A stretch of 64,000 nt of DNA from Candidatus Peregrinibacteria bacterium (GTDB lineage Bacteria; Patescibacteriota; Gracilibacteria; Peribacterales; Peribacteraceae), in NCBI GenBank assembly GCA_030649955.1, contig JAUSFD010000027.1, positions 1-64,000 of the forward strand. Reading direction: 5' to 3'. The notes beneath the pieces are model-generated. The model was not told the DNA's origin, did not search any database, and worked only from the letters and a program-made list of their open reading frames with translations. Position numbers and translations under genes: made by a program. Positions 14,465-44,723 of this stretch are shown here, piece after piece (the first letter of the stretch is position 1; every line of letters begins with the position of its first letter).

Positions 14465-14635
14465 GCATATTCAGGTGGAGCCTCTGCGGAAGTTTTGATT
14501 GCGAGAGAGGGCACGAAGGGCAGTAACGGCAGGAAAGGCAGGAAGGTATTTCACATTGCTGCCCTTACTGCCTTACCTGCCCTGCCTGCCTTTCCTCAAT
14601 CGATCAGTGACAGCTTCTCCATTCGCAATCTCCTC

Positions 14636-16520: not shown

Positions 16521-16657
16521 ACGGAGAGTGGAAAAGAATCGTTCCTCCGTAAAGAGTGGAGGAGATCTGGGGCATCCTATCAGACGATGCGAGTGTTACC
16601 AGTCTTTCCTATTTGACGTTTTTCTCCTCTTATGCCGAAATTCCAACTTCCAACTAC

Positions 16658-16741
16658 CAACTTCCAAGAAAGATTTGCAAAATACTAAAACAAAAATTCT
16701 TTGTGATTGTTCATTGTGATTTTCTTGTGGATTGGAAGTTG
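16658..16741. mobile_element. Mini copy of the IVP-carrying unit
   Basis: It starts CAACTTCCAAGAAA (16658-16671) and ends with the 21-nt TTTCTTGTGGATTGGAAGTT + G (16721-16741). The second sequence is identical to 44674-44694 and the first matches 44208-44221 in 13 of 14 bases, but here only about 50 nt of AT-rich filler lies between them instead of a gene. The ends are imperfect inverted repeats. It sits between two gene 3'/5' ends without disrupting either. Confidence 0.55.
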
Positions 16742-16748
16742 GAGCTTC

Positions 16749-37970: not shown

Positions 37971-38087
37971 GATAGGGTTAGGGTTAGGATTAGGGCTAGG
38001 AAAAGACCAAATGCGTGAGTGAGAGTACCAATGCCACGCTCGTATGACAACGATTTTTCAACGAGGACCTAGCCCCAGCCCTAACCC
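37971..38087. repeat. Telomere-like GGGTTA tract and inverted partner
   Basis: GATAGGGTTAGGGTTAGGAT and the following TAGGGCTAGG (37971-38000) lie between two tRNA genes. CCTAGCCCCAGCCCTAACCC (38068-38087) is its inverted match in 17 of 20 positions. The G runs could form a quadruplex, or the two arms a long stem spanning the 67-nt spacer. Confidence 0.55.
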
Positions 38088-38134
38088 AATCCCTTCTCAA
38101 ACAGAGAGACGTTTGCTACATTTTCCCCCGACGT

Positions 38135-39083: not shown

Positions 39084-39640
39084 ACGCAGGGCATCCCTCG
39101 CTACTCGAGATCGAACAGTTTGAGCTGCACATCATCTGGCTTTCTCCCCTGCTTCTCGATGTATTTCAGAATGGTTTCCTTTGTACCACGATTGCTGACC
39201 GTTCCAATGTAATAACCATCTGTCCAGAATGATCCACCCCAGAGTTGCTCTTTGACTGAGGGTATGCGAAGGCAGGGTCTTGCCGTGAGCTTCTTGATCG
39301 TGCCGATGACATCCCCTCCTGAGTGTGTGGGGAGGAATTGGCAGAGGATGTGAACGTGATTGTCATCGAAGCCAATTTTGTAGATGTGGATGGCAAAGCG
39401 CTCCTTGAATCCCTTGAGTGTTTCCAGGATTGTCTCGATCACGTGGGGTTCTAGGACCGCTTTTCTGTATTTGATCGTGATCTGGATGTGATAGTGGCAC
39501 TCAGAGACGTTGTGATACCAACGCCAGAGATCTGTATCAATCTTGAGCATAGATGTTCATTGTATCTGTTTGTTGTGTGTGTTGAGCGAATAAGGTGCCT
39601 GCGTCCGCGCTGCGGCGCTTGAACGCAGGGCATGGGTAGT
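39048..39640. mobile_element. IS200/IS605-family element, tnpA only
   Basis: A minus-strand tnpA is bracketed by two hairpins in the same orientation: arms CCCTGCGT/ACGCAGGG (39048-39055, 39084-39091) and CCTGCGT/ACGCAGG (39598-39604, 39623-39629), both containing CGCTGCGGC and followed by GGCAT. Subterminal direct-orientation hairpins are the hallmark of these single-strand transposons. Exact ends are not fixed by eye. No tnpB is present. Confidence 0.75.
39101..39550 (-). CDS. tnpA: IS200-type Y1 transposase
   Basis: A 149-residue HUH transposase, the normal length. His65 and His67 in NHVHIL hold the metal, and Tyr130 in ILKYIEKQG attacks the DNA 5' side. The RGTKETILKYI context matches the family. 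It moves as single-stranded DNA using the flanking hairpins. Intact, so possibly active. Confidence 0.93.
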   Translation of the reverse strand: MLKIDTDLWRWYHNVSECHYHIQITIKYRKAVLEPHVIETILETLKGFKERFAIHIYKIGFDDNHVHILCQFLPTHSGGDVIGTIKKLTARPCLRIPSVKEQLWGGSFWTDGYYIGTVSNRGTKETILKYIEKQGRKPDDVQLKLFDLE

Positions 39641-42771: not shown

Positions 42772-44127
42772 TCAGAGGAACGTATCGATGCGCGTCTCGC
42801 CGATGTAGACGGGATGAGCGTCCGGTCCGCGCATCTTCGCAATGGCTTTCGTGAGACCGATACGATCGAGGACATTGAGGAAGCGCTGGCGCCCGCCCCC
42901 ATTGCCGAAGTCCGTCATGTTCGTGAACTGCTCTACGCGCTTCCCCGTGACGACGATGCTCCCATCCGTCCTCTTCTCTAGACGGTACGCCCCCATCTTG
43001 TCGGAGGTGAGGTGCGGGCGAAGAATGGGAATTTCTCCTGCCGCCTCTGCGGGCTCCTCCTCTTCAAATGGACGCAATTTCGTTCGTTCCTTGAGCACCA
43101 GGGGCAGGAGCTTCTTCTTGAGCTCCTCCGTGCGCAGAGTCTGCGCTGCAGAGACGGTCAGGAAGACTTCGATGCCACGATCCTTCAGCTCTCGTTCGAT
43201 CTGCTCTGTCTCCCCACTGATGACGTCAGCCTTGTTGAGGATGACGAGTTCGCGCTTCTGTGCGAGGAGAGGGGAGTAGGTGGCGAGTTCGTTGCGAATT
43301 GCCCGGTAGTCTGCCGCTAGAGCATCTGCATCCACTACCCTCCCTTCCTTCAGTGCGCGGGAGATATCGAGGACGTGGACGAGGATCCCGCAGCGCTCGA
43401 TGTGGCGGAGGAAGGTACCACCGAGCCCCTTTCCTTCACTCGCTCCCTCGATGAGACCCGGGATGTCGCACACAACGAATGAGCGGTCGTCGACCTTTGC
43501 GACTCCCAAGTTCGGGACGATCGTTGTGAAGGGGTAGTCGGCGATCTTCGGCCTAGCTGCACTGATGACGGAGATGAGGGTCGATTTCCCCACATTGGGG
43601 TAGCCAATGATGCCGACATCCGCGACGAGCTTGAGCTCCAGGAGGACATGCACCCGTTCTCCCGGTTCCCCGAGCTCCGCGAAGTCCGGTGCTTGATTCA
43701 AAGCGGACTTGAAGTGGGCGTTCCCGTATCCCCCGCGTCCCCCGTGCGCGATGAGCATGCGGTCGCCGCCCGTCCGCAGATCTCCCACGATCACCCACTT
43801 CTCCTGATCCGGTGCCACCTTCGAGTGCGTCTTCTGTGTCTTCACGACTGTCCCGGGTGGCACGGGGAGCACGAGGTCCTCTCCCTCTCGTCCCCCGCGG
43901 TTCTGCCCAGAGCCGAAGCGGCCCTTGGGTGCTTCGAATTTCTTCCTACTCGCGAAATCACTCAGCGTATCCGTGTTCTCATCCGCGAGGAGGATCACGT
44001 CTCCGCCATCCCCGCCATCCCCGCCATCAGGTCCGCCCCGGGGCACGTACTTCTCCCGTCTCCACGACACACACCCGCGACCTCCAAGGCCGCCTACGGC
44101 TTCGATAGTGGCTTCGTCTAAAAACAT
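42772..44127 (-). CDS. obg: GTPase Obg
   Basis: A 451-residue Obg/CgtA GTPase acting in late 50S ribosome assembly and stress control. The Gly-rich Obg fold is at about 1-155 (GGLGGRGCVSWRREKYVPRG, GGDGGDGG). The G domain is at about 160-340 with P-loop GYPNVGKST, switch DIPGLIEGASEGKGLG and NKAD. The C-terminal OCT domain is at about 365-451. Start at MFLDEATIEAV; TATACT lies 6 nt upstream of this ATG (leaderless), while the open frame reaches 44196. Confidence 0.96.
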   Translation of the reverse strand: MFLDEATIEAVGGLGGRGCVSWRREKYVPRGGPDGGDGGDGGDVILLADENTDTLSDFASRKKFEAPKGRFGSGQNRGGREGEDLVLPVPPGTVVKTQKTHSKVAPDQEKWVIVGDLRTGGDRMLIAHGGRGGYGNAHFKSALNQAPDFAELGEPGERVHVLLELKLVADVGIIGYPNVGKSTLISVISAARPKIADYPFTTIVPNLGVAKVDDRSFVVCDIPGLIEGASEGKGLGGTFLRHIERCGILVHVLDISRALKEGRVVDADALAADYRAIRNELATYSPLLAQKRELVILNKADVISGETEQIERELKDRGIEVFLTVSAAQTLRTEELKKKLLPLVLKERTKLRPFEEEEPAEAAGEIPILRPHLTSDKMGAYRLEKRTDGSIVVTGKRVEQFTNMTDFGNGGGRQRFLNVLDRIGLTKAIAKMRGPDAHPVYIGETRIDTFL

Positions 44128-44133
44128 AGGAAG

Positions 44134-44139
44134 AGTATA
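44134..44139 (-). promoter_or_regulatory. Leaderless -10 box of obg
   Basis: TATACT on the minus strand, 6 nt from the obg ATG at 44127. Confidence 0.6.
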
Positions 44140-44207
44140 GCGAGTTCTGCGGGGTAATAGAACGGAGTTTTGCCTTTTCTGTAGAGAAAAAATCAACTCT
44201 CAACCTT

Positions 44208-44694
44208 CAACTTTCAAGAAATGATCAAGGAGATTAAGAGAAAAAGAGTCATTCTTTCTCCATGAATACTAGTGATCGTATAGATGCGAATATCATGAAG
44301 CCATTCGATCTTCAGCAGAGAAGTCTCCTCTTTGCACAGGATGTACGGTCCTTCGCTAGGCTCCTTCCACGTTCTGTTGCGAATATGCAGGATATTCGTC
44401 AATTGATCAGATCCTCTGGCTCAATTGGAGCAAATTACATAGAAGCATCCGATTCCCTTGGAAAACGAGACAGTATTCACAAGCTTCGAATTAGCAGAAG
44501 GGAAGCAAAGGAATCCATGTACTGGCTTTCTCTTGTGGATACAGGAGGCAGAAATGAGCTCAGTAGCCAGCGCACTCAACTTGTGAACGAAGCTAGGGAG
44601 CTTCTCTGTATCCTTTCTTCAATGATTCGTAAATGCACCGGAAGCCCTTAGTTACCTTTATTCTTTTCACCAATTTCTTGTGGATTGGAAGTTG
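44208..44694. mobile_element. IVP-carrying unit with inverted ends
   Basis: Bounded on the left by CAACTTTCAAGAAA and on the right by TTTCTTGTGGATTGGAAGTT + G, it holds one gene (44262-44651). Both boundaries recur at 16658-16741 without the gene. The ends are imperfect inverted repeats of each other, and the outer sequence repeats CAACYYTCAA motifs. It looks like a passive mobile cassette. Confidence 0.6.
44262..44651 (+). CDS. Four-helix-bundle protein (23S rRNA IVP family)
   Basis: A 129-residue protein of the intervening-sequence/S23 family: FDLQQRSLLFAQDVRSFARL, then IRSSGSIGANYIEASDSLGK and KLRISRREAKESMYWLSLVD, the conserved helices of the bundle. Members are encoded in 23S rRNA intervening sequences and scattered through many genomes; pentameric forms are known but the role is not. 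Here it is inside a unit with inverted ends between obg and dnaK. Confidence 0.9.
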   Translation: MNTSDRIDANIMKPFDLQQRSLLFAQDVRSFARLLPRSVANMQDIRQLIRSSGSIGANYIEASDSLGKRDSIHKLRISRREAKESMYWLSLVDTGGRNELSSQRTQLVNEARELLCILSSMIRKCTGSP

Positions 44695-44723
44695 TGTATT
44701 GGAAATTTTACTTCAAGAGACTG

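Follow-up and report, generated by a model that had tools for sequence, protein, structure and literature searches.

IVP proteins have been known for decades and, to our knowledge, no function has been assigned to them; nor do we know of any recognised nuclease, transposase or reverse transcriptase domain in these proteins. Terminal inverted repeats made of short tandem units, as found in the IVP cassettes described here, are present in the eukaryotic Foldback (FB) elements, which differ in being eukaryotic and much longer and in having different or unknown proteins.

The 23S rRNA IVSs carry an ORF of the same family (PF05635) enclosed by complementary termini (PMC4990558), and the passage of that article in which Ralph and McClelland (1993) are cited reports their guess that IVPs help IVSs to move. 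PF05635 has a four-helix-bundle fold and is reported to share homology with Avd, which serves as accessory protein in diversity-generating retroelements (PMC10053308). REPIN–RAYT systems resemble the units described below in consisting of dispersed intergenic inverted-doublet hairpins of ∼50–150 nt, each family of which is tied to a gene with the same repeat (PMC3116915). The GGGAATC and GGGGA(C/T)T repeats of Xanthomonas and Nostoc are, like IVP arms, intergenic heptamer arrays with many inverted pairs (70 and 75 in two strains); in the part of the article by Rehm et al. (PMC4692102) that deals with them they are read as quadruplex elements and described as quadruplex-forming simple repeats, without a link to IVP genes or to mobility.

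The IVP cassette between obg and dnaK

The window (the whole stretch of 64 000 nucleotides of the host genome that was analysed) carries an IVP cassette, which on direct reading of the sequence is a 515-nt unit at 44193–44707. The gene (44262–44651, plus strand) encodes a four-helix-bundle protein of 129 amino acids and was assigned by profile matches to PF05635 (45.5 bits, cut-off 33.8) and TIGR02436 (66.8 bits, cut-off 24); the protein resembles the solved structure 2rld (E = 1.5e-9) and forms a long branch in the IVP tree. Both arms were read directly on the plus strand. The left arm (44193–44221) is a heptamer array of TCAACTC, TCAACCT, TCAACTT and TCAAGAAA, and the right arm (44674–44707), which is inverted with respect to the left, is TTTCTTG TGGAT TGGAAGT TGTGTAT TGGAAAT T. 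The arrangement of an IVP gene within a unit with inverted ends, proposed in the first-pass annotation, was thus confirmed. The ends given there, CAACTTTCAAGAAA at 44208–44221 and TTTCTTGTGGATTGGAAGTTG at 44674–44694, are present exactly at this site, and the gene-less pair of ends is present as given at the second site described below, but the true ends are longer heptamer arrays that reach further out. The 20-mer end has two exact occurrences in the window compared with 0.00 expected (allowing up to three mismatches). The 14-mer end alone is weak (two in the window, 0.5 expected, allowing up to two mismatches), so that the evidential weight lies in both ends occurring as a pair. The left and right arms of the cassette pair with each other in the minimum-energy RNA fold.

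The second site is a gene-less mini unit of 103 nt (16641–16743) with the same ends as the cassette. Its left arm (16641–16671, plus strand), established by direct reading and alignment, is TT CCAACTT CCAACTA CCAACTT CCAAGAAA, and its right arm (16721–16743, plus strand) was read directly as TTTCTTGTGGATTGGAAGTTGGA. These arms contain CAACTTCCAAGAAA at 16658–16671 and, at 16721–16741, a 21-mer identical to that of the cassette, spanning 84 nt overall; direct reading of 16658–16741 revealed no IVP gene between the ends. The hairpin fold of the mini unit was better than those of all 200 shuffled sequences (z = −5.1). On alignment, the mini unit and the cassette have the ends alone in common. Three more gene-less copies of this family were located on host contigs C18, C30 and C11, together with a lone left-type arm at C28:19343. 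Counting the 14-mer gave 13 sites (two of them paired), barely above the reversed-sequence control (11 and three); membership of the family was therefore judged by the ends and loop common to the copies in the alignment and not by 14-mer counts.

The cassette is flanked by obg (42772–44196, minus strand) and dnaK (from 44777, plus strand), which are found near each other in at least 17 relatives. Five relatives have obg–dnaK gaps of 108–250 nt without an IVP gene, and some further relatives have longer gaps. An IVP gene of one subfamily is found at this junction in the window and in two other genera (L102 and L075). An ancestral IVP gene at this locus, named beforehand as the finding that would count against a mobile unit, is therefore only partly excluded: the two other genera are in its favour, but the short IVP-free gaps of other relatives are against it. 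The window protein falls in a clade with L102, L075 and IVP genes with AATTGA-like heptamer arms, inside which its placement is poorly supported. Taken as their reverse complement (TTGAAAGTTGAAGGTTGA), the window arms match the arms of this clade (L100, L105) better than as they stand; the window cassette also has its C-rich arm upstream, which is the minority polarity, and its gene is oriented opposite to L102 and L075 at the obg–dnaK junction. From the arm match and the polarity we hypothesize, as the simplest explanation, that the window gene may have been flipped between its two arms.

Compared with the described systems, the window unit has the IVP ORF enclosed by complementary termini of a 23S rRNA IVS, but it lies between obg and dnaK in a window without rRNA. 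As it is not inserted in a 23S rRNA helix, it was not classified as an rRNA IVS. IVP cassettes in general differ from the IVSs in lying outside rRNA, in ordinary intergenic regions and operons, and in having tandem-array termini and dispersed gene-less derivatives; the rRNA IVSs may be members of the cassette class that landed in rRNA. The cassettes were not filed under REPIN–RAYT because of their unrelated protein and their different kind of repeat: a four-helix IVP gene and no REP-associated tyrosine transposase is present, the arms are private tandem arrays of 6–9-nt units in place of REP palindromes, and the gene lies between both arms. They differ from diversity-generating retroelements in that no reverse transcriptase (RVT_1) was found in the host genome; RVT_1 is present in 17 of 59 genomes.

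Private arms of IVP loci in many phyla

The host genome (1.67 Mb in 34 contigs) yielded nine PF05635 matches, one of them located at a contig end, and most of these genes sit between inverted short tandem repeats. The arms differ from gene to gene and comprise GGGTTA (telomere-like), GGATTA, CGTTTATT, GGCAGGAAA, AGCTATC and the CAACTT of the window; for one gene cut short by the end of its contig, the remaining side has GTGGACA. No recognisable inverted arrays flank the host IVP gene L010 (C1:134017–134322), which may have been domesticated or may be an old cassette without its former arms. Genome searches were performed with one representative per species, and IVP genes were found in 43 of 59 genomes of relatives, with a maximum of 21 per genome. 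At the search threshold no IVP match was obtained in phages.

Arms were scored as the best inverted repeat between the left and right flanks of a locus, with flanks mispaired across loci as the control. In the class to which the window belongs 63 of 76 loci scored at least 30, compared with 1.5% of mispaired flanks. A further 76 loci were taken from other phyla (Bacteroidota, Clostridia, Proteobacteria, Planctomycetes, Chloroflexi, Acidobacteria, Kiritimatiellota and others); 51 of these scored at least 30 (mispaired 1.5%) and 37 at least 40 (mispaired 0.16%). Over many phyla, inverted tandem arms were present in 147 of 179 distinct IVP loci (82%; mispaired flanks ∼3%), and non-IVP genes of the host reached the same score in 17 of 974 cases (1.7%). 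The cassette of the window (L012) escapes local-alignment detection because its arms are degenerate, and the value of 82% is thus probably a lower bound. The period among armed loci was 7 in 92, 8 in 22, 9 in 20 and 6 in five. The G-rich strand is upstream in 127 loci and the C-rich strand in 14, a bias that points to a role for one specific strand or transcript.

The arms match within each locus yet differ between loci, and there is no fixed end sequence. In the other phyla an arm sequence recurs 0.73 times elsewhere in its own locus and 0.12 times in other loci. The idea that IVP genes elsewhere would share the exact window ends did not survive this comparison, since the short tandem arrays are private to each cassette, and fixed 14- and 21-nt ends were rejected as a universal IVP signature. 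With private ends, a search of other IVP genes for the exact ends would wrongly refute the idea of a mobile unit.

Arm similarity was compared with IVP protein identity between genomes and gave a Mantel r of 0.38 (p = 0.001) in the window's class. Across all phyla, a locus and the locus in a different genome with the most similar protein agree in repeat period in 73% of cases (48% with shuffled labels), and the correlation with arm sequence is weak (r = 0.16) because arms change faster than proteins. This covariation is consistent with the protein recognising the arms, although linked inheritance could contribute.

In the Xanthomonadaceae IVP genes were present in 29 of 60 genomes, and 28 of 30 inspected loci had an arm score of at least 26, mostly with heptamers that include GGGAATC, GGGATTC, GTGATTC and GGGACC. 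These arms are of the same GGGA(A/T)TC type as the published heptamer repeats. Tandem GGGAATC occurred at two or more sites in 13 of the 29 genomes with IVP genes and in three of the 31 without; the latter three retain some GGGAATC arrays, for which lost drivers are a possible source, as they are for repeats without a cassette. The GGGAATC repeats of Xanthomonas appear to be part of the same IVP system. The IVP protein XCC0516 of Xanthomonas campestris is of known structure (2gsc), a pentamer of four-helix bundles.

Insertion sites and dispersed gene-less units

At five cyanobacterial plasmid sites the gene and both arms are jointly absent in relatives. At (a) cas6–cas4 the site is occupied in Anabaena sp. 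90 and empty in Dolichospermum, with flanks that are 98.7% identical; the empty plasmid carries other intergenic sequence there. At (b), an integrase-gene junction, two Calothrix plasmids are occupied and those of Nostoc carneum, Tolypothrix and Aulosira are empty, the cassette fitting between adjacent genes. At (c), a TraM operon, Nostoc C052 and N. edaphicum are occupied, Nostoc C057 is empty and Nostoc ATCC 53789 has a gene-less unit at the same place. Site (d), an ABC-exporter locus of Calothrix, is a less clean occupied/empty pair, and (e) nrdB–nrdA is occupied in N. edaphicum and empty in Calothrix. At the better-resolved junctions the insertion replaces merely a few bases. Together with the short IVP-free obg–dnaK gaps in relatives, these site pairs identify the cassettes as insertions. 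Target duplications, which a comparison of occupied and empty loci had been expected to reveal, were looked for and none was visible at the compared sites; flank matches in six families were at the control level, and the units are in this respect unlike MITEs of the DNA-transposon type.

A gene-less unit on the Nostoc C057 and N6 plasmids (L396/L397), at a new site, holds the final ∼46 nt of an IVP gene between its left and right arms. The retained end of the gene identifies it as a direct deletion derivative with both ends kept, as in a MITE-like element, and a segment of its loop is also found in the ATCC 53789 unit, which lies at a different site. The earlier view of gene-less units as MITE-like derivatives of the cassette holds by virtue of this plasmid unit; the mini unit of the window shares the ends only. 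Among the other plasmid loci, the cassettes L303 and L342 (Nostoc plasmids, same site) are 97–100% identical and their left flanks 75–90%, which suggests recent transfer or conversion of the cassette. In plasmid pANA02 of Anabaena sp. 90 (L305:2600–2990) an IVP gene inserted into a type I-D CRISPR operon has an upstream heptamer array (GGTGACA/GGGAACA) that, at ∼300 nt, is unusually long.

Dispersed units were sought in 1.21 Mb (73%) of the host genome. The scan returned 297 close inverted repeats at a score of at least 16 (six in the mirror control), the strongest of which were mostly inverted tandem arrays with short loops. Hairpin units form families of up to 25–30 members with sharp, unrelated flanks. 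Repeats of the cassettes L009, L008, L007 and L013 were found at 30, 48, 32 and 20 sites, respectively, of which 26, 18, 16 and 12 were paired; for L005, L006 and the window cassette, mini units are few or do not exceed the control. Dispersed inverted doublets tied to one gene, as in REPINs, are thus strongly developed for four of seven armed cassettes and weakly for the family of the window. Two further gene-less mini units in the window belong to families with cassettes elsewhere in the host: one at 37974–38094 (GGGTTA/GGGCTA, period 6; cassette at C28:198978) and one at 14508–14590 (GGCAGGAAA, period 9; cassette at C30:77268). Units avoid genes, eight of 121 lying inside a long open frame compared with 47% of random positions. 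A composite of an 8-mer hairpin nested in a 9-mer hairpin occurs in at least three places (C1:114867–115025, C28:107240–107400 and C11:39040–39200) with an identical internal junction, and was therefore copied as a whole.

Four host families (GGGAACA, AATGTA, CCCAAA and GAGACCGA) comprise 6–30 paired mini units, and no IVP cassette with such arms was seen in the host; the driver gene may have been lost, leaving them orphaned. Carriage of other genes between arms was considered and rejected: the long bracketed intervals without an IVP gene (C30:78163, C34:2289, C25:69594, C28:25271, C30:79976, C8:31167 and C30:36333) are ordinary genes between separate mini units. A separate GC-rich host family of CCCTCTCCCG...CGGGAGAGGG palindromes, often in inverted pairs (e.g. 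C18:66091–66213 and C28:19062–19137), resembles classical REP/REPIN sequences.

Mini units were also compared between genomes with and without IVP genes. The IVP-bearing genomes gave 141 calls in 1.21 Mb (host), 25 in 0.40 Mb (G031, 12 IVP genes) and five in 0.16 Mb (G004, one IVP gene), corresponding to 31–117 per Mb. In 0.60 Mb sampled from 15 relatives without detectable IVP (pieces of 4–240 kb per genome) there were two calls, a T/C-rich run and an N run, neither of which is credible.

Proposed mechanism and rival explanations

The window unit is, on balance, probably a small mobile cassette of a very widespread class, in which IVP is proposed to act on its own arms and in trans on mini units. 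The layout is a short tandem array of period 6–9, the IVP gene and the same array inverted, over ∼450–520 nt. The IVP protein would recognise the hairpin of its own arms, as single-stranded DNA or RNA, promote the copying or the insertion of the cassette that encodes it and act in trans on gene-less deletion derivatives with the same arms; dispersed families of hairpin mini units would result, as REPINs do from RAYTs. This proposal starts from the observed architecture, the private matched arms, the association in many phyla, the insertion/absence polymorphism, the derivatives, the covariation and the lack of mini units in the sampled IVP-less genomes. From these we infer that IVP is a trans-acting factor that recognises the arms. 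As IVP has no recognised catalytic domain, either a host enzyme or the replication fork would be recruited or IVP would have an activity that has escaped recognition. By analogy, the best reading is a REPIN–RAYT-like selfish system with the IVP protein in place of the transposase. The stronger version, that the IVP pentamer itself is the dedicated mobility factor of widespread prokaryotic mobile elements, recognising and regenerating their private tandem-repeat hairpin ends, is put forward tentatively and is perhaps rather doubtful.

An explanation at the RNA level alone is unlikely but deserves weight. The arms would form an RNA stem, as in the 23S rRNA IVSs, at which RNase III would release the IVP message from any transcript that the element has entered; IVP would be a chaperone of the stem and not a mobility factor, spread would occur by ordinary horizontal transfer and recombination and the mini units would be decayed cassettes. 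In the Coxiella IVS a 28-bp terminal stem, which RNase III cuts, encloses the IVP ORF in its loop (PMC4990558), several insertions lie between operon genes (e.g. cas6–cas4 and nrdB–nrdA) and the window mini units fold well as RNA. Mini units nevertheless far outnumber cassettes and occupy unrelated sites, and the nested composite was copied; decay in place cannot yield this, and a pure stem requires neither tandem units of fixed period nor a constant G-rich upstream polarity. It is less likely again that another enzyme (an IS200/IS605 or RAYT-type transposase, or a reverse transcriptase) moves the hairpins and that the IVP gene is an often captured passenger, although REPIN–RAYT is exactly such a system (PMC3116915) and Avd-type relatives work with reverse transcriptases (PMC10053308). 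The host has two Y1_Tnp genes, one of which is in the window, an IS200/IS605-type transposase gene (39101–39550, minus strand) 4.6 kb from the IVP unit. This transposase, suggested in the first-pass annotation as the mobiliser, was not implicated: no Y1 transposase lies inside the unit as it would in an IS200/IS605 element, and at least 13 IVP-bearing relatives surveyed, including two single-contig genomes, are without Y1_Tnp, which is thus not required for IVP presence. With RVT_1 likewise missing from the host, dependence on IS200 or a reverse transcriptase is unsupported, and one gene family with covarying arms across phyla would be unexpected of a passenger.

We regard two further explanations as very improbable. 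If the arrays were ordinary simple-sequence repeats (slippage, G-quadruplex) with IVP genes inserted into or near them, as the quadruplex interpretation in the relevant part of PMC4692102 might favour for GGGAATC, they should not be missing from the empty sites and from sampled IVP-less genomes, nor be inverted and matched within a unit; many (e.g. AATTGAT and AAGCAGT) lack the G-runs needed for quadruplexes. If IVP genes were instead ancestral host genes with terminators or regulators as arrays, and lineage losses mimicked empty sites, the single subfamily at obg–dnaK in three genera would be accounted for; the joint absence of arms and gene at five plasmid sites with similar flanks, the numbers of IVP genes in some genomes (up to 21) and the short IVP-free obg–dnaK gaps of other relatives argue to the contrary.

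The open-access literature, the scope of the search (subscription papers and most preprints lie outside it), yielded no paper that connects IVP genes with dispersed inverted tandem repeats, and on that condition the cassette class looks undescribed so far. Should the mobility of IVP cassettes as a class be true, it would explain the spread of rRNA IVSs, of the cyanobacterial STRR-type heptamer repeats and of the Xanthomonas GGGAATC repeats, as well as the divergence of inverted ends, which is faster than that of the protein between elements while the ends stay matched inside each. If the association is causal, one gene family would stand behind a large set of dispersed repeats, hitherto not connected with each other, in bacteria of many phyla, and mobilisation would proceed without a recognised transposase or reverse transcriptase. 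IVP function and the spread of IVSs become directly testable questions, and the cassettes would offer a model for the joint fast change of mobile-element ends and the protein that recognises them.
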